Shown piece after piece: positions 41,956 through 64,000 of a DNA stretch of 64,000 nt. The position numbers and the translations under genes are program-made. Every line of letters begins with the position of its first letter. The first letter of the stretch is position 1. Source of the stretch: an uncultured Paenibacillaceae bacterium (GTDB lineage Bacteria > Bacillota > Bacilli > Paenibacillales > K13); assembly GCA_913056365.1 (NCBI GenBank), contig CAJXLT010000006.1, positions 1 to 64,000 on the forward strand, written 5' to 3'. Below the pieces are notes generated by a model, which did not search any database, was not told the origin of the DNA, and worked only from the letters and a program-made list of their open reading frames with translations.

Positions 41956-42076
41956 TCGTTCTCTTTTCCTTTCAGGTAGCATCGTGTATGATTAGGTTTA
42001 GTTTAGCGAAAATAAGCGTCGACAGCAAATAAGTCCGGCGAAAACAAATTAACAGACAAGGAAGGCTTTGGAGAGA

Positions 42077-43213
42077 ATGAGAGAGAATATGCTGGCGATG
42101 GATGTTAGAGAGCTGCGGAAGGAGTTCCGCGTTCAGCGAAATAGAGAAGGTTTGGGCGGTGCGCTGAAGGACTTATTCAAGCGTGAATACAATACAGTGC
42201 GAGCAGTTAAGGATATCTCGTTCCAAATTCCGAAAGGTGAGATATGCGGCTACATCGGCGAGAACGGAGCGGGCAAATCTACTACGATTAAGATGTTGAC
42301 CGGGATTCTCGTGCCCACATCGGGACAGCTGCTGGTGAACGGGATGGTTCCACATAAGGAACGGGAAAAGTTTGTCCGCGGCATCGGCGTCGTCTTCGGG
42401 CAGCGCAGCCAGCTATGGTGGGATATCGGGGTCATCGAGTCGTTCCATCTGCTGCGCAAGGTGTACCGTGTGCCGATGGAGGAATTCAAGCCGCGCTTTG
42501 ACGAGCTGGTTGAACGGTTGAAGCTGGCCGAGCTGCTGAATCGTCCGGTGCGCAAGCTGAGTCTCGGTCAGCGGATGCGCTGTGAGCTGGCAGCCTCGCT
42601 GCTTCATAACCCGTCGATTGTCTTCTTGGATGAGCCGACGATCGGCTTGGACATTGTAGTGAAGTCGGAGATTCGTGAGTTTCTGAAGGAGATGAATCAG
42701 AAGTACGAGACGACGATTTTGCTGACGACGCATGACTTGCAGGATATTGAGGCGCTGTGCTCCCGCGTCATTATGCTCGATGACGGCAATATCATCTATG
42801 ACGGCGGTCTCGAGGAGCTGAAGACCCGCTGGGGCAAGGGCAAGGAAGCGCTGTTCCAATTCGCCGAGACGGTGACGATCGGGCAGCTGGAGCAGCTGAC
42901 AGCCGGTCTTCCGGTGCGCTGGAAGCAGGAGAATGAGCTGACTGCGCGCGTATTCGTGCCGCAGGAGCGGGCGAATATATCGGAGGTGCTCGCTCGTCTC
43001 GTCTCAGAGGGAGGCTTGCACATTCTCGATATTAAGCTGTTCGAGACCGGAACGGATGAAATTGTGCGCGAGATTTACCAATCCGGCTCTGCGGAACAAC
43101 GTGGTGACGCCGAACGAGGCGGAGCAGCGGCTGTGAAGCCGACCGAGACGGCAGGTAGTAAGCAGAGCGCGGAACAGGCTGCGGAGAAAGAAGGCGTATC
43201 TGCAGATGCTTAA
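42077..43213 (+). CDS. ABC-2 exporter 1, ATP-binding protein
   Basis: ATPase of an export-type ABC system of the family paired with 'ABC2_membrane_6' permeases. Walker A is GENGAGKS (about 61-68), followed by a Q-loop region VVFGQRSQLWWDI, the signature LSLGQRMR and Walker B IVFLDEPTIGLD, then the switch His in LTTHD. The 378-residue product has an extra N-terminal stretch EFRVQRNREGLGGALKDLF typical of this subfamily and an Ala/Glu-rich tail of about 40 residues. ATG 42077 was preferred over an upstream TTG that abuts the AAGGAAGG ribosome site. It overlaps the first permease by 8 bases, so the three genes are translationally coupled. Substrate unknown. Confidence 0.9.
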   Translation: MRENMLAMDVRELRKEFRVQRNREGLGGALKDLFKREYNTVRAVKDISFQIPKGEICGYIGENGAGKSTTIKMLTGILVPTSGQLLVNGMVPHKEREKFVRGIGVVFGQRSQLWWDIGVIESFHLLRKVYRVPMEEFKPRFDELVERLKLAELLNRPVRKLSLGQRMRCELAASLLHNPSIVFLDEPTIGLDIVVKSEIREFLKEMNQKYETTILLTTHDLQDIEALCSRVIMLDDGNIIYDGGLEELKTRWGKGKEALFQFAETVTIGQLEQLTAGLPVRWKQENELTARVFVPQERANISEVLARLVSEGGLHILDIKLFETGTDEIVREIYQSGSAEQRGDAERGGAAAVKPTETAGSKQSAEQAAEKEGVSADA

Positions 43214-44000
43214 TGCGTATTTGGACATCATCCGTATTCGCTTTCTCATGATGCTGGCTTATCGGGTGAATTATTATAGCGGTATTATTATTTATGCGAT
43301 TAATATTGGCGCGTATTATTTCCTGTGGCAAGCGATCTACGGAACGAGCGAGACACTGGGCGGCTTCACCGTGCTGCAGATGACGACCTATGTCGCCGTC
43401 TCATGGATGGCGCGCGCCTTCTACTTCAACAATCTCGACAGGGAGATTGCCAATGAAATCAAGGACGGCAGCGTCGCTGTGCAGATGGTACGTCCCTACA
43501 ATTATTTGCTGGTCAAGATTATGCAGGGGCTTGGAGAAGGAATCTTCCGCCTCGTGCTGTTCAGCACGCCGGGTATGGTGATCGTATCACTCTTGTTCGA
43601 TATTAGGCTGCCGACCGAGTGGCATGTTTGGCTTATTTTTCTGATTATGATTTTCTTCAGCTTCTTAATTAATTCGCAGATTAATATTTTGACAGGGCTG
43701 TTTGCTTTTTTCGTGGAAAATAATGAGGGCTTGATGCGCATGAAGCGGGTGGCGGTCGATCTGCTGTCCGGTCTGATTATCCCGCTCAGCTTCTTCCCTG
43801 GTTGGGCGATTGCGATTCTCGAGTGGCTGCCGTTTCAAGCGATTACGTACTTGCCTGCGTCCGTATTCACGGGCAGGGTGAGCGGAGCTGCGGTTGGGGA
43901 CGCATTGCTTGTACAGGTGATTTGGTTCGTCGTCATGATTGTGCCGATTATGATCGTATGGCGTGCGGCCCGTAAGCGGCTGTTTGTGCAGGGAGGGTGA
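43206..44000 (+). CDS. ABC-2 exporter 1, permease A (ABC2_membrane_6)
   Basis: Integral membrane subunit of 264 residues with six predicted helices (for example YYSGIIIYAINIGAYYFLW and VWLIFLIMIFFSFLI). The family's inter-helix motif is present as ANEIKDGSVAVQMVRPYNYLL (compare 'GxxDxxLxRP'), and the C-terminal end RKRLFVQGG is the common 'YQSQGG-like' close of this family. The start lies inside the end of the ATPase gene. The stop, in GGGAGGGTGA, carries the ribosome site of permease B. The two permeases presumably form a heterodimer. Confidence 0.9.
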   Translation: MLNAYLDIIRIRFLMMLAYRVNYYSGIIIYAINIGAYYFLWQAIYGTSETLGGFTVLQMTTYVAVSWMARAFYFNNLDREIANEIKDGSVAVQMVRPYNYLLVKIMQGLGEGIFRLVLFSTPGMVIVSLLFDIRLPTEWHVWLIFLIMIFFSFLINSQINILTGLFAFFVENNEGLMRMKRVAVDLLSGLIIPLSFFPGWAIAILEWLPFQAITYLPASVFTGRVSGAAVGDALLVQVIWFVVMIVPIMIVWRAARKRLFVQGG

Positions 44001-44005
44001 GCGCG

Positions 44006-44791
44006 ATGATGAATACAGCAATTATAATGGAATATCTCAAGACATATCTGAAGACGAGGCTCACCTACCGCGCAGACTTCGTCATCGAAATTGTGACTGA
44101 TCTCATGTTCCAGACGATGAATTTGCTATTCATCCTTGTCGTCTTCAGTCATACGGAGCTGCTGGGCGGCTGGTCGCGCGATGAGATGATCTTCATATAT
44201 GGCTACTTCATGATTCCGAGCGGGCTGTTCGGCTGCTTCTTCAACATGTGGAACTTCACAGAGCGCTACATTGTGAAGGGGGAGATGGATCGGATCTTGA
44301 CCCGACCTGTGTACAATCTTGTGCAGCTCATTATGGAGAATCTCGATCCATCGAGTCTGTTCGGCTCGCTGACCGGCGCGCTGGTTATGGGCTATGCCTG
44401 GTGGCAGCTCGGACTTGGCTTCGAGTGGTGGTATGTGCCTGTGCTGGTCATCCTAGTAATCGGTTCGGTGATGATCTATGCCGGCATCTACATTACGCTA
44501 ACGGCGATCTCGTTCTTCTCGGACGCGCCAACCGGCATCCAGCCGATGATGTACAATATTCAGAATTACGGTCGTTATCCGGTCAATATTTACAATAAAG
44601 TGATTCGCTTCGTCCTTACTTGGGTGCTGCCGTTCGCATTCGTCGGCGTGTATCCGGCGGCGTTCTTCCTCGACAAGGATATTACACGCGGATTCGCGAT
44701 GCTGACACCAGCCGTTGGTCTCGTCTTCCTAGTAGCCGGTCTGTTGTTCTGGAACTACGGCGTGCGGAAGTATCGAGGCGCGGGGTCATAG
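44006..44791 (+). CDS. ABC-2 exporter 1, permease B (ABC2_membrane_6)
   Basis: Second membrane subunit, 261 residues with about six helices. It has the paralogous motif VKGEMDRILTRPVYNLVQL and ends in LLFWNYGVRKYRGAGS. GGGAGG lies 10 bases before ATG 44006, while an in-frame GTG at 43997 overlaps that site. It is transcribed directly after permease A; the following lipoprotein gene begins 9 bases after its stop. Homologous to the permeases at 62668 and 63459, which form a second copy of the same system. Confidence 0.9.
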   Translation: MMNTAIIMEYLKTYLKTRLTYRADFVIEIVTDLMFQTMNLLFILVVFSHTELLGGWSRDEMIFIYGYFMIPSGLFGCFFNMWNFTERYIVKGEMDRILTRPVYNLVQLIMENLDPSSLFGSLTGALVMGYAWWQLGLGFEWWYVPVLVILVIGSVMIYAGIYITLTAISFFSDAPTGIQPMMYNIQNYGRYPVNIYNKVIRFVLTWVLPFAFVGVYPAAFFLDKDITRGFAMLTPAVGLVFLVAGLLFWNYGVRKYRGAGS

Positions 44792-58808: not shown

Positions 58809-58837
58809 TTGAAATTACGTCCATCTAGTAATATAAT
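58809..58837 (+). promoter_or_regulatory. Sigma-A promoter of the 58899 gene
   Basis: TTGAAA (58809-58814), exactly 17 bases, TATAAT (58832-58837). Confidence 0.75.
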
Positions 58838-58898: not shown

Positions 58899-59963
58899 AT
58901 GACGCAAGCCCGCAAGCGGCAGCTACCCATTGCGGAACCACCGATTCAAGGATTTCTTCATCATGCCTATACGTTGGCGATTGGCGCACATTATGCTGAG
59001 TTTTATCCTTGGTTCTACAGCAATTATATTCAATTAAGATGCTACAAGGACATCGCGAACAACATGCATCACGATTACTTGAATTTTTATAACTATGATT
59101 TGGCTAAGGACCTGTTCCCGTGGTTGACGATTGAGAAGATTTCCCGTGAGGTGTACGCGAAGGGGTTCGGCGATCTGTCGTCGTTCATCTGCGACTGTAT
59201 GGATTCTGATTATTATTTGTATCTGTTCGCCGATAAGTACTACCTGCCTGGACGCGATGAGTACCAGACCCGTCATTTTATCCATGATCATTTCTTCTAC
59301 GGTTACGACAAGGACGAACGGCAATTCGACTTCATCGGCTTCGACAACAGGGGGCTGTTCCGTAGAAGCCCTATTGCATTCGACGATCTTGATAACGCTT
59401 ACAATATGGCCAATCCGAGTCATAGCTGGCAGACGTATTTGTTCATGCTGAAGTATAATCCCAATTACAGATCAGCACTGGATTTGCAACTGGTCATCGA
59501 CCTGCTCGACGATTACTTGTTATCCCGCAATACTTCAGAGCGATTCCGTATGTACAAGCAACCAATCGATGCGGTGTTCGGGTTAGAAGTGTATACGAAG
59601 CTAGAAGAATATTTCGAGATGCTCGGGGCTGGTGAGATTAGATCGGACGTACGAGGTGTGCATCTTGTGCATGAGCATAAGAAATGCATGCTAGACCGCC
59701 TGCGCTACATGGAGAGCGAAGGGTTCCTGCATGCAAGCGATGAGCTGTCGTCTGCGTATAGTCAGATCGCCGCGCAAGCCCATTCGATGAAGCTATCCTT
59801 GATGAAGTTCGCGAGAATGAAGGACAAGGAGTGGGTGAAGTCAGTTCTCACACTCATTCAACAGATGAAGGCCTCGGAGAAGCTTGTCCTGGAGCAGGTG
59901 TTGGACAAGCTTCAAGCCCGCGAGACTCGAACGGCTGTTAGTTCCAGCGGTTCCTTAGTGTAA
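58899..59963 (+). CDS. Unknown protein, possible papain-like (BtrH-like) fold
   Basis: A 354-residue soluble protein of unknown function with a good promoter and the ribosome site AAAGGGGGAA. The first 170 residues are rich in Tyr, Phe and Asp (FYPWFYSNYIQLRCYKD, YYLYLFADKYYLP). The segment YQTRHFIHDHFFYGYDKDE, with His126, 129 and 131, then FDFIGFDN, resembles the His-Asp half of papain-like domains in BtrH-type and C39-like proteins of biosynthetic clusters. A matching Cys nucleophile is not obvious: Cys48, 98 and 100 are the only candidates. The second half is helical, ending in a coiled coil. Its 3' end overlaps the convergent dehydrogenase gene by 26 bases. An acyl-transfer role with the nearby carrier protein is conjecture. 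Confidence 0.6.
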   Translation: MTQARKRQLPIAEPPIQGFLHHAYTLAIGAHYAEFYPWFYSNYIQLRCYKDIANNMHHDYLNFYNYDLAKDLFPWLTIEKISREVYAKGFGDLSSFICDCMDSDYYLYLFADKYYLPGRDEYQTRHFIHDHFFYGYDKDERQFDFIGFDNRGLFRRSPIAFDDLDNAYNMANPSHSWQTYLFMLKYNPNYRSALDLQLVIDLLDDYLLSRNTSERFRMYKQPIDAVFGLEVYTKLEEYFEMLGAGEIRSDVRGVHLVHEHKKCMLDRLRYMESEGFLHASDELSSAYSQIAAQAHSMKLSLMKFARMKDKEWVKSVLTLIQQMKASEKLVLEQVLDKLQARETRTAVSSSGSLV

Positions 59964-61140
59964 CAACGCCTAGCGTTCGCTTCGCCAATATCTCCTTGAG
60001 CAGATCATCGGTAGGCTGATGGAACGTCGCTGCGCGCACATCGCGATGCAGCCGTTCCAACAGTCCGCCTTGATTGAGAGAAGCCATGCCTTCCACATGC
60101 ATAGCTAGACGGACTATCTCATTGGCTGTATTCGTTACGTGATACTTCGTAATGAGCGACTTCTGGAACAGGTCGTCCGTGAATTCGCCAGCAGCTCTCT
60201 CTTCATCGCCTTGTCTAGCGAAGCCGCGCAGCTGGTTCGAAGCAACTTCAAGCTGGATTTTCATATCGGCCAACGTGAATTGCGCGCCCGGCATCATCGC
60301 CAAGTTCGTCTGCGAGTACAGATCCCGCTTGCGCTTCATGATGGCAATCGTATGATCGACTGCTGACCTCGCGATCCCTTGATACACAGCAGATATAGCA
60401 AGCCGCGACCAGTAAGACAGCTCATTCGTATCTTCGACACCGTAACCTTCGCGACCGATCAGTCGATCTTCGGGAACGAAAACGTCCTTCATATCGACAT
60501 GATGGCTCATCGACGCTTTCATCGCTGACAGATTCCAAGCTGTCTTGATCTCAACACCTGGATCGTCGCGGGTGACCATCAACGCTGTCATGCCCAGCTT
60601 GCTCTTCGTCCCTTCCTGGTAACCATAGACAGGCAAGTACTTGAAGCGCTCGCTTCCGGATACGAAGTTTTTCCTACCGTTGATGAGATAGCCGCCTTCC
60701 ACTTTGTCAATCTTGACTTTGACCAGCTCGAAGCCGCTTGCCTTATTGAACTGTGACATCACATTCGGCTGGTTGAATGAAGATATAAATTCGCCTCCTT
60801 CATAAATATCTTGGAACATCTTCTGCAGCATCGGATTGTCGGGAATTCTGCTTAGACCTGCGAGTGTATAATAGTGCATCGCCATACACAACGCGGTGGA
60901 GGGACATCCTGAAGCCATTTCGACAAGTGTGTCGAAAGTTCGCTCGAAGCCGTAGTTTCTGCCGCCAAATTGTTCGTCAAGCGGCAATGTGTGCAAGTTT
61001 CTGCTGACGATGTCGTCGAAATTCTCATGCGGGAAGCGGAAGGCCGCATCGACTTCATTTGCCCGACTGAAAAAGTTCTCCTTCAGCTCCTGCAAACCCA
61101 AGACCTCGAGCTTTTCTCTTATTTCAGGCAGAACGTTCAT
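59938..61140 (-). CDS. Acyl-CoA dehydrogenase-family flavoprotein
   Basis: FAD-dependent oxidation of an acyl thioester. The 400-residue product has the three-domain fold: helical FDDIVSRNLHTLPLDEQFGG and MASGCPSTALCMAMHYY, the middle beta domain (FISSFNQPN, GGYLINGRKNFVSGSERFKYLPVYG, MKASMSHHVDMKDVFVPEDRLIG) and a helical C-terminus (YWSRLAISAVYQGIARSAVDHTI, LLERLHRDVRAATFHQPTDDLLKEILAKRTLG). It is of the type-2 branch found in secondary metabolism, and I cannot place the catalytic base with certainty. GGAGGAAGATC lies before the ATG. It diverges from the carrier-protein operon across a 268-base promoter region and overlaps the unknown gene tail to tail. The substrate may be CoA- or carrier-bound. 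Confidence 0.85.
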   Translation of the reverse strand: MNVLPEIREKLEVLGLQELKENFFSRANEVDAAFRFPHENFDDIVSRNLHTLPLDEQFGGRNYGFERTFDTLVEMASGCPSTALCMAMHYYTLAGLSRIPDNPMLQKMFQDIYEGGEFISSFNQPNVMSQFNKASGFELVKVKIDKVEGGYLINGRKNFVSGSERFKYLPVYGYQEGTKSKLGMTALMVTRDDPGVEIKTAWNLSAMKASMSHHVDMKDVFVPEDRLIGREGYGVEDTNELSYWSRLAISAVYQGIARSAVDHTIAIMKRKRDLYSQTNLAMMPGAQFTLADMKIQLEVASNQLRGFARQGDEERAAGEFTDDLFQKSLITKYHVTNTANEIVRLAMHVEGMASLNQGGLLERLHRDVRAATFHQPTDDLLKEILAKRTLGVVTLRNRWN

Positions 61141-61185
61141 GATCTTCCTCCTTTATATTCTTCATATGCAATTTACAATAAGGGC

Positions 61186-61215
61186 TTGACGATAGAAAGA
61201 CAAGCGAGATATTAT
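61186..61215 (+). promoter_or_regulatory. Sigma-A-like promoter toward the carrier-protein operon
   Basis: TTGACG (61186-61191), 18 bases, TATTAT (61210-61215). It lies close to the dehydrogenase start and would give a leader of roughly 190 bases before the carrier protein; a nearer -10-like GATATAAAT is at 61363. Confidence 0.5.
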
Positions 61216-61331
61216 GAAGTATGAATTTTCCGAACTGCAAAATTTGTCAGTTTTTTTGACCCAAACTTCAATTTTCGACCATTGTAGCACAAAGGGGAGA
61301 ATAAAGTAAGTATTTTCTGAATTTTTCATTT

Positions 61332-61360
61332 CGCTTTCGTAAGCGGTTTCTATGTCGCTT
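61332..61360 (+). promoter_or_regulatory. Triple half-site operator candidate before the carrier-protein gene
   Basis: CGCTT (61332), AAGCG (61341) and CGCTT (61356) alternate: CGCTT-tcgt-AAGCG and TAAGCG-N10-CGCTTA share the middle half-site. The segment CGTAAGCGGTTTCT within it is also cre-like with two mismatches. It sits just before GATATAAAT and about 50 bases before the carrier-protein GTG. Confidence 0.45.
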
Positions 61361-61408
61361 ATGATATAAATCTAGCTGATCAGTTCATGTGTGAAAGGGG
61401 GGGAACTA

Positions 61409-61669
61409 GTGAGCATTCAAGAGAAAATTGGAGAAATTATAGGATCTGTGTTGGAAATTGGCGCTGATCGTATGGCGAGTGTCGCAGGAAGCGACGCATT
61501 GAACGATCTGGGCATGGATTCGTTGAACTGTGTCGATATCGTGCTGTCGATTGAGGAGGAATTTGACGTTATCTTCAATGACGAGGAGTTGTTGTTGGAA
61601 AATCTGAATACGATTAATAAACTTACGGAAACCGTGGAGCAGAAGCTCGGTCAGCCTTCCGTAACTTGA
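61409..61669 (+). CDS. Stand-alone acyl carrier protein
   Basis: An 86-residue phosphopantetheine-carrying protein. The attachment Ser38 lies in LNDLGMDSLNCVDIV, with the acidic helix II SIEEEFDVIFNDEELLLENLNTI that is standard for ACPs. It starts at GTG 61409 after a run AAAGGGGGGG, 7 bases away. This is unlikely to be the fatty-acid AcpP: there are no fab genes, and instead it is followed 13 bases on by an ABC exporter ATPase and faces an acyl-CoA-dehydrogenase-like gene. Such free carriers serve NRPS/PKS-type or lipid-tailoring pathways. It would be activated by AcpS (428) or an Sfp-type enzyme. Confidence 0.92.
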   Translation: MSIQEKIGEIIGSVLEIGADRMASVAGSDALNDLGMDSLNCVDIVLSIEEEFDVIFNDEELLLENLNTINKLTETVEQKLGQPSVT

Positions 61670-61682
61670 GGAGTTGAGCAAG

Positions 61683-62693
61683 ATGGCACTGATTGAAGTA
61701 GACGATTTGGTCAAGGAATACCAGCTGAATGTCAGACACAAGGGCTTGCTGGGTTCTATTCGAAGCTTGTTGATTCCCGAATATACGAAGAAGGTTGCGG
61801 TGGATTCCATCAGCTTCTCGATTGAGAAAGGAGAAACGGTTGGTTTCATCGGACCGAACGGCGCTGGCAAATCAACGACGGTTAAGATGCTGACAGGCAT
61901 ATTAACGCCTACATCCGGCACTATCACAGTTGGCGGCTTGTCGCCTTACAAGGACCGCAAGAAGAACGCCTCGAGAATTGGCGTAGTTTTCGGTCAACGG
62001 ACACAACTGTGGTGGGATCTGCCTGTCGCGGATACGTTTGATTTGCTGAAATATATTTATAAAATACCGGATAACGTTTTCAGGGAAAATATGGAGCTTT
62101 TTTCGGACATATTGGGTTTGCAGGAGTTCATGAAACAACCGGTTCGTCAGCTGAGTCTCGGTCAGAAGATGCGGGCGGATATCGGAGCGGCGCTGCTGCA
62201 CAATCCAGAAATTATTTTCTTCGATGAGCCGACAATCGGGCTGGACGTCGTTGCGAAGGAGCAAATTCGGGAGTTCGTTCGTACGGTGAATCGTGAACGC
62301 GGTACGACGATGCTGTTCACGACGCACGACATGCTCGATATCGAGAAGACGTGCAAGCGCATGATCATTATCGATCACGGCAAGAAGATTTATGACGGTA
62401 CGGTTGAGGAAATCAAGGATAAGTATGGCAGAAGCCGCGTTCTCAGAGTCGAGTTCAGTGAGTATATTGCCGATGTGCAGCTGCCCGGCGCTGAGATGAT
62501 CAAGGAGGAAGGCAACAAGAAGTGGTTTGAATTCCAGAAGGACCAGACGCAGGTTTCCCGCCTGATCAATACCCTTTCGCAAAAATATGGCATCGTTGAC
62601 ATAACTGTACAAGAACCGGAAATCGAAGGGGTCATCCGTGAAATTTATCAGGGAGGGATTGACCTCAATGAGACTTTATCTGGAGTTAGCTAA
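61683..62693 (+). CDS. ABC-2 exporter 2, ATP-binding protein
   Basis: A 336-residue ATPase paralogous to that at 42077. It has the same N-terminal region (YQLNVRHKGLLGSIRSLL), Walker A GPNGAGKST, VVFGQRTQLWWDLPVADTF, signature LSLGQKMR, Walker B IIFFDEPTIGLD and FTTHD, but lacks the long Ala/Glu tail. ATG 61683 follows GAGGAG at 7 bases. It is preceded by the carrier protein and overlaps the next permease by 26 bases, so the unit is tightly coupled. Placement behind a carrier protein suggests it exports the product of the local pathway (inference). Confidence 0.92.
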   Translation: MALIEVDDLVKEYQLNVRHKGLLGSIRSLLIPEYTKKVAVDSISFSIEKGETVGFIGPNGAGKSTTVKMLTGILTPTSGTITVGGLSPYKDRKKNASRIGVVFGQRTQLWWDLPVADTFDLLKYIYKIPDNVFRENMELFSDILGLQEFMKQPVRQLSLGQKMRADIGAALLHNPEIIFFDEPTIGLDVVAKEQIREFVRTVNRERGTTMLFTTHDMLDIEKTCKRMIIIDHGKKIYDGTVEEIKDKYGRSRVLRVEFSEYIADVQLPGAEMIKEEGNKKWFEFQKDQTQVSRLINTLSQKYGIVDITVQEPEIEGVIREIYQGGIDLNETLSGVS

Positions 62694-63456
62694 GAAGTCG
62701 TTCCAGAACAACATCGTATATCGGGCTGATTATTTCGCAAGCTTGATTAATGCGATCGTGTTAATCTTCGTGAATATTGCGATTTGGAAGGCGATCAACG
62801 AGGAAGAAGGCGCGCTTGGCGGACTGCAGTTGAACATTCTGATCACCTATATCGTCATCTCGTTCTTAATGCAGACCGTGTATCAGATGGATGAGTATTT
62901 CATCGAGGGGAAAGTGCGGACAGGTCTTATCTCGACCGACCTGCTGAAGCCGTTCTACTTCCGGCTCTTCGTCTTCTCGTACAATGTAGGATCGATGGTG
63001 TTCAAGTTCATTATGCAGTTCATCCCGGCTATGCTGCTCTCGGTGTTTCTCTTCCGCCTGTTGCCGCCATTCAATACTCAGATGCTCTTGTACTTCATCC
63101 TTAGCGCCATTCTCGGATACTTGGTGTTGTACAACATCAACTTCATCGTATGGATCAGCTCGTTCTGGTTCTACTGGACGTTCAGTCTCGTGACGATTAA
63201 GGACGCGGCAGTTATGATCCTGTCAGGAGCACTGATTCCGATCTGGTTCATGCCGACTTGGCTGATTGACTTCATCGAGTTGACTCCGTTCAACGCTATC
63301 TTCTACACGCCGATACTGATCTATCTTGGGATGATGCCAGAGGATGAGATATTCATGAGCATTGTGAAGCAAATTTTGTGGATCATCGCCCTGTTCGGCA
63401 TCGGTCATATTCTGTGGAAGCGAGCGACTAAGAAATTGGTCGTACAGGGAGGGTAA
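62668..63456 (+). CDS. ABC-2 exporter 2, permease A (ABC2_membrane_6)
   Basis: Membrane subunit of 262 residues with about six helices (YFASLINAIVLIFVNIAIW, FILSAILGYLVLYNINFIVW). It has the family motif IEGKVRTGLISTDLLKPFYFRLF and the same C-terminal KKLVVQGG as permease A of exporter 1. GGGAGGGA lies before ATG 62668; ten further codons upstream are open but overlap the ribosome site. The stop is 2 bases before the next permease start. Confidence 0.9.
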   Translation: MRLYLELAKKSFQNNIVYRADYFASLINAIVLIFVNIAIWKAINEEEGALGGLQLNILITYIVISFLMQTVYQMDEYFIEGKVRTGLISTDLLKPFYFRLFVFSYNVGSMVFKFIMQFIPAMLLSVFLFRLLPPFNTQMLLYFILSAILGYLVLYNINFIVWISSFWFYWTFSLVTIKDAAVMILSGALIPIWFMPTWLIDFIELTPFNAIFYTPILIYLGMMPEDEIFMSIVKQILWIIALFGIGHILWKRATKKLVVQGG

Positions 63457-63458
63457 TC

Positions 63459-64000
63459 GTGAGAAATTCGGGATTTCTTGAATCGTTGAATGTGTTCTAT
63501 CAGTATTCCAAGCTTAGTCTGAAGGTCATGCTGGAGTTCAAGCTGGATCGCTCTATGATTACACTTGCTATATTTTGCAGAGAGATGATCGCAGTAGTAG
63601 TCATGCTTCTGATTCTGGCGAGATTCCTGCACATTCGCGGTTGGGATATGAACCAGCTGTTCTTCCTATACAGCTTCCTGTTCATATCGTACAGCCTGTT
63701 CGTGTTTATTTTTGCCGGTGTTCGGGACTTCGACCAGCTAGTGCACAGCGGGGAATTTGACCGGTACTTAATAAGGCCGCGCGGCCTGCTGTTTCAAGTC
63801 GTAGCATCGAAGATTGATCTGCCCGCGACACTCGGTCACGGGGTAGTGGGCGTCATTCTGTTTATGAATACGGCCTTTAGCGTCGGGATTACATGGAATA
63901 TGCAAAATATACTGTTTTATATTTCAGTCGTTGTTGGCGGAGCAGTCATTCAAGCGTCGATCTTCATGCTGACAGCGTGTATGAGCTTCTGGGCGATACG
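63459..64000 (+). CDS. ABC-2 exporter 2, permease B, cut by window end
   Basis: An open frame from GTG 63459 to the end, at least 180 residues. GGGAGGGTAATC lies before it. It reads MRNSGFLESLNVFYQYSKL, then a first membrane segment after LDRSMI (AVVVMLLILARFL), FFLYSFLFISYSLFVFIFAG, and the family motif VHSGEFDRYLIRPRGLLFQVV, matching GxxDxxLxRP. At least four helices are visible before the edge. It completes the exporter with 61683 and 62668. The 3' end and any further genes of the cluster lie outside the window. Confidence 0.88.
   Translation, partial: MRNSGFLESLNVFYQYSKLSLKVMLEFKLDRSMITLAIFCREMIAVVVMLLILARFLHIRGWDMNQLFFLYSFLFISYSLFVFIFAGVRDFDQLVHSGEFDRYLIRPRGLLFQVVASKIDLPATLGHGVVGVILFMNTAFSVGITWNMQNILFYISVVVGGAVIQASIFMLTACMSFWAI

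Follow-up and report, generated by a model that had tools for sequence, protein, structure and literature searches.

We consider it fairly probable that the gene cluster at the right end of the window, by which we mean the 64,000 nucleotides analyzed here from an uncultured Paenibacillaceae bacterium (the first 64 kb of the 225-kb contig CAJXLT010000006.1, contig and window coordinates being in agreement), encodes a modular pathway free of nonribosomal peptide synthetases (NRPS), in which an aminoacyl unit is built on a carrier protein and transferred to an amine acceptor in a variant of butirosin/lincosamide-type chemistry. The initial annotation had named four elements in the window, a 354-residue protein, an acyl-CoA-dehydrogenase (ACAD)-like enzyme, a free carrier protein and a three-gene ABC-2 exporter, and had suggested that the 354-residue protein resembles BtrH and passes an acyl group from the carrier to an acceptor. 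Open reading frames and Pfam families agreed with these elements and their positions. The cluster was also expected to continue past the edge, and it does: the genes in the window are the left half of a cluster that is longer than the window and runs 6 kb beyond its right edge on the same (+) strand, with a loading enzyme of the amino acid:[carrier protein] ligase type and a genuine BtrH encoded beyond position 64000. The observation is real, but the central transfer assignment now goes to the BtrH gene outside the window and no longer to the 354-residue protein.

In the proposed pathway, a class-II tRNA-synthetase-like ligase would activate an amino acid with ATP and attach it to the phosphopantetheine arm of a carrier, probably the neighboring carrier 2; the ACAD-like flavoenzyme, possibly together with a PPOX flavoprotein, would oxidize the carrier-held acyl or aminoacyl group, probably on carrier 1; BtrH would take the group onto its cysteine and then pass it to the amine of an acceptor not encoded at the locus; and the ABC exporter would pump the product out. 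Additionally, a surface 5'-nucleotidase and an NTP_transf_5 protein may work as a pair that protects the cell by masking and unmasking. The ligase step is supported by the best PDB match of the enzyme (Bll0957, amino acid:[carrier protein] ligase 1; E = 2e-16), by its intact metal-ligand positions and ATP-binding arginines and by the gene for carrier 2, which lies directly upstream and overlaps the ligase gene. In an alignment to 3MEY, C250, E297 and C400 correspond to the Cys/Glu/Cys metal-ligand triad of Bll0957; these three residues and the motif 2 and 3 arginines R278 and R407 were invariant in ten homologues from several clusters. With a class-II core and a neighboring carrier, as in Bll0957-type ligases, the enzyme looks able to work like an amino acid:[carrier protein] ligase, judging from these residues, though it is not classified as one. 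Similarly, the BtrH step is supported by a score above the curated BtrH_N cut-off (52.4 versus 29.7 bits), by Cys31, His164 and Asp182, which were invariant in a set of 11, and by the fold of carrier-dependent transferases, the predicted model (predicted local distance difference test [pLDDT] score of 75) matching AziU2-U3 with a Z score of 24 and CcbD and CtaG with Z scores of 21 to 22. The precedent of CcbD, the location of the ACAD subfamily near carrier genes, the conserved gene core and the butirosin-like set of the relatives, all described below, also speak for this pathway.

Several points weigh against this pathway. The ligase scored far below the curated NF005479 cut-off (87.6 bits versus 357) and, unlike Bll0957-type ligases, it sits in a BtrH/exporter cluster and carries an extra N-terminal region of approximately 140 residues. 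The attachment site of carrier 2 is unusual, and the carrier used by each enzyme is a guess from gene order. Finally, the ACAD-like enzyme lacks the usual catalytic base, which casts doubt on its proposed reaction: the canonical C-terminal catalytic Glu of ACADs (EGT) is replaced by HQPT.

The position of this Glu was occupied by Gln, Pro or Tyr, and never by Glu, in 11 of 11 members of the ACAD subfamily, and the position presumed to hold the alternative catalytic Glu, as in isovaleryl-CoA dehydrogenase, is a Ser. Because the catalytic Glu is missing, desaturation by the textbook mechanism is doubtful, and an oxidation or hydroxylation with another base would be open to the enzyme. The replaced Glu sets it apart from the carrier-acting ACADs (for example, prolyl-carrier dehydrogenases and MbtN), and its nearest PDB structures were 5Z8T/5GJ7; it shares with the carrier-acting ACADs the superfamily and a genomic link to carriers, the subfamily lying near carrier protein genes in six of eight Firmicutes loci in a BLAST screen. 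Hydroxymalonyl- or aminomalonyl-acyl carrier protein (ACP) had been mentioned as possible units, and we found nothing pointing specifically to either. In Paenibacillus tarimensis (L161), the surroundings of an ACAD relative (53%) include carrier proteins, an AMP-ligase-like gene and QueD- and QueC-looking genes, a set suggesting a deazapurine-type product. In Paenibacillus polymyxa ISL-58 (L163), another relative (44%) adjoins a gene that looks like a pyridoxal phosphate-dependent decarboxylase, and a carbamoyltransferase-like gene and a carrier are close by.

The 354-residue protein belongs to no Pfam or NCBIfam family above cut-off, and a scan of the genome contigs with its single sequence gave no relatives; its family was found by whole-genome searches. 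The family is large, with 7 matches in the window genome, 12 in a sister genome and matches in 171 of the 395 genomes of the order that formed our conservation sample. An AlphaFold2 model made with 27 family members (pLDDT score of 91.9) contained the papain-like domain and C-terminal helical bundle seen in CcbD and CtaG, and over nearly the full length (about 280 to 305 residues) it matched CcbD (Z = 18.9), CtaG (Z = 17.7) and the AziU2-U3 complex (Z = 17.3), whereas unrelated entries scored at Z = 10 and below. Comparison of the family profile with that of the cluster's BtrH family gave a probability of 98.6% (E = 8e-16). These matches confirm the BtrH-like fold suspected earlier, and the segment HFIHDHFFYGYD, which had prompted that suspicion, is the strand bearing the catalytic histidine, His129, which aligns with His164 of BtrH and is 92% conserved. 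The predicted fold is thus common to the 354-residue protein, BtrH and the transferases of lincosamide (CcbD/LmbD), closthioamide (CtaG) and azinomycin (AziU3/U2) pathways, and carriers are present in the cluster. However, sequence identity to these transferases was 9 to 16%, and the 354-residue protein lacks the catalytic Cys: the nucleophile position reads QGFL, versus NDCF in BtrH and TECY or VKCW in Cys-bearing relatives, and the Cys is absent from most of the family. At the position of the third residue no conserved acid was seen, in a part of the alignment that is uncertain. CcbD transfers an amino acid from its carrier to an amino sugar via Cys-His-Glu, the acyl group being loaded on the cysteine and the His and Glu activating the sugar amine (PMC12945683). 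Because there is no cysteine at the nucleophile position, the 354-residue protein as read from its sequence cannot use such a CcbD/BtrH-like cysteine-transferase route. Of the acyl transferase role first suggested for it, the fold stood and the cysteine nucleophile did not, so that an outcome which the initial annotation had itself named as refuting has come about in part; the transfer step is better assigned to the separate BtrH gene, which suits this role. Most likely, the 354-residue protein is a helper that binds the carrier or the acceptor, or it performs aminolysis through His129 without a covalent intermediate. A further idea, which we regard as rather unlikely, is that the Cys-less family members are a widespread group of condensing enzymes that depend on carriers, retain the His within a papain-like fold and, much like NRPS condensation domains, make amide bonds with no covalent acyl-enzyme intermediate, in pathways with the loader swapped between tRNA-synthetase-like, ATP-grasp and adenylation-domain types. 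We rejected the proposal that a Cys is retained in the family only in the absence of BtrH: genomes G376 and G189 have neither the Cys nor a cluster BtrH, and G069 has both.

With the NTP_transf_5 protein as the query, close orthologues (67 to 100%) were found in 11 of the 395 genomes, from three families (f1, f5 and f8), and in all 11 a core consisting of carrier 1, the three exporter genes, the 5'-nucleotidase and NTP_transf_5 was adjacent. Carrier 1 was 48 to 55% identical to its counterparts in relatives, and the exporter ATPase was 72 to 79% identical in relatives outside the genus. The sister genome holds the entire cluster in the same order at 81 to 95% protein identity, and the order 354-residue protein, ACAD, ACP and exporter is also found in Paenibacillus sp. 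cl123 and P. puerhi. The cluster is therefore not a chance arrangement, and the elements named in the window do occur together in other genomes. BtrH is present in nine of the 11 core genomes; Paenibacillus sp. cl123 and P. puerhi lack it and have a member of the 354-residue family and the ACAD. An ATP-grasp ligase was present in nine core genomes, and a BtrK-like decarboxylase and an AMP ligase stood beside a second carrier in seven; the locus in the window genome and its sister has no ATP-grasp, decarboxylase or AMP ligase gene and has the tRNA-synthetase-like ligase instead, a loader that only these two of the 11 possess. Relatives thus pair the core with butirosin-like ligase and decarboxylase genes (best PDB match of the decarboxylase, BtrK; E = 4e-92) or with an NRPS-type adenylation enzyme. 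Carrier 2 was considered as an orthologue of the relatives' second carrier and rejected at 19 to 27% identity. A more distant version of the cluster in G376 and G189 has a member of the 354-residue family, NTP_transf_5, a tRNA-synthetase-like ligase, a carrier and an exporter, and no ACAD or BtrH. G069 carries a further copy of the cluster that seems to be degenerating (G069:C1:3504001-3524000; L151), with the NTP_transf_5, permease 2 and ligase genes in pieces, in which BtrH was not found. Elsewhere in the window genome, the region G000:C1:536000-562000 (L060, L061) contains two more tRNA-synthetase-like genes, two phytanoyl-CoA-dioxygenase-looking genes, a Cys-bearing relative of the 354-residue protein and a carrier, and Fictibacillus solisalsi (L165) has a similar set.

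The size of the 354-residue family, with its 7 and 12 copies in the two genomes, several of them among unrelated genes, together with six core-bearing relatives that have no copy beside the core, could mean that the protein stands outside the pathway, as a dispersed paralogue that adjoins the cluster by accident. We find this improbable: the gene adjoins the ACAD gene in two distant genomes, on one strand and with a 4-base overlap, and family members lie inside the cluster in G069 and in the tRNA-synthetase-like clusters of G376 and G189. We gave an equally low probability to an envelope role, in which the amino acid would end up on a cell-surface saccharide or another envelope polymer and no free small molecule would be made. 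ABC-2 exporters also transport polysaccharides, which would suit such a role. The acylation suggestion in PMC2922099, the nearest earlier prediction, points the same way: it describes a Bll0957-type ligase with a carrier and an oxidoreductase in a liposaccharide gene setting, where the ligase may attach an amino acid. BtrH-family and ACAD genes are also mentioned in that paper, for other clusters that contain class-I-synthetase-like genes. However, no glycosyltransferase or polysaccharide gene occurs in the cluster, and what its relatives have instead are BtrK and BtrH genes of the antibiotic type.

The butirosin side-chain pathway consists of the carrier BtrI, the ATP-grasp ligase BtrJ, the decarboxylase BtrK, the monooxygenase BtrO and the transferase BtrH. 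The window locus shares with it a carrier and a BtrH transferase, and relatives of the cluster have BtrK-like and ATP-grasp genes and, in two cases, luciferase-like genes. In contrast to butirosin, the window locus combines a tRNA-synthetase-like ligase with an ACAD-like enzyme and a dedicated exporter, and it has no BtrJ, BtrK or BtrO counterpart and no aminoglycoside genes. Pathway genes elsewhere in the window genome were sought by single queries, and a second locus at G000:C1:950000-960000 (L184, L185) holds a CYTH protein, a response regulator, a carrier, a BtrH, a kinase, a BtrK-like decarboxylase and a BtrJ-like ATP-grasp ligase, with no exporter, 5'-nucleotidase or NTP_transf_5. It is conceivable, though doubtful, that the two loci are parts of a single split pathway, the product of which would bear a 4-aminobutyryl-type side chain. 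Relatives hold both gene sets in one cluster, and in the window genome the exporter, 5'-nucleotidase and NTP_transf_5 occur only at the window locus and the decarboxylase, ATP-grasp ligase and kinase only at the second; however, each locus has its own carrier and its own BtrH, suggesting two acyl units or two products, and a luciferase-like (BtrO) homologue was found in neither locus.

The features of the cluster are listed in Table 1. The 354-residue protein and ACAD genes are convergent with a 26-base overlap, and the genes for carrier 1 and the exporter lie on the strand opposite to the ACAD gene and run away from it. The exporter consists of an ATPase gene followed by two consecutive ABC2_membrane_6 permease genes, as assigned by Pfam. 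The serine in the GMDSLN motif of carrier 1 is Ser44 in the longest open reading frame and Ser38 when counted from the GTG at 61409. The genes had been credited with promoters of their own, a claim that the number of sites did not support beyond chance: the scan gave 16 sites, versus 16.4 expected, and was set aside as evidence. Its promoter-like matches included 11/12 at 58809-58837, the best one, approximately 60 bases upstream of the 354-residue protein gene, and 10/12 at 61186-61215. On the right flank, guaA is the next gene after the PPOX flavoprotein, and on the left, genes of the MoxR, DUF58 and transglutaminase types were recognized by inspection; both flanks are shared with the sister genome. 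Another ATPase with two permeases of the same exporter type, 26 to 44% identical to those of the cluster, lies at 42068-44791 in the window.

Table 1. Genes of the cluster in the window and on the adjoining part of the contig
Feature	Position	Strand	Assignment
354-residue protein	58899..59963	+	Predicted BtrH/CcbD-type (papain-like) fold; retains His129, lacks the catalytic Cys (model, fold and profile matches, alignments)
ACAD-like flavoenzyme	59938..61140	-	Pfam Acyl-CoA_dh_1/2/M/N; subfamily without canonical catalytic Glu
Carrier protein 1 (GMDSLN)	61391..61669	+	PP-binding, E = 9e-10
ABC exporter ATPase	61674..62693	+	ABC_tran, DrrA-like
ABC-2 permease 1	62638..63456	+	ABC2_membrane_6
ABC-2 permease 2	63459..64289 (contig); cut by window edge at 64000	+	ABC2_membrane_6
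5'-Nucleotidase	contig 64342-65928	+	Family protein with N-terminal hydrophobic segment; membrane-anchored
NTP_transf_5 protein	contig 65975-67099	+	
Carrier protein 2	contig 67152-67427	+	Unusual attachment site
Class-II tRNA-synthetase-like ligase	contig 67414-68772	+	Bll0957 match, E = 2e-16
BtrH (BtrH_N protein)	contig 68724-69878	+	Triad C31/H164/D182
PPOX flavoprotein	contig 70551-71171	+	

No described cluster of this kind was found in the literature, in a search that covered few subscription papers, and the searchable papers gave no description of tRNA-synthetase-like carrier protein ligases that make an exported small molecule. The carrier-based pathway that we favor points to a pathway family without an NRPS or polyketide synthase megasynthase, in which a conserved core is combined with varied amino acid loaders and usually with BtrH. 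It also makes the function of the numerous Cys-less proteins with a BtrH fold in Paenibacillus relatives testable. If the pathway is confirmed, tRNA-synthetase-like carrier protein ligases would acquire a part in the synthesis of an exported small molecule.

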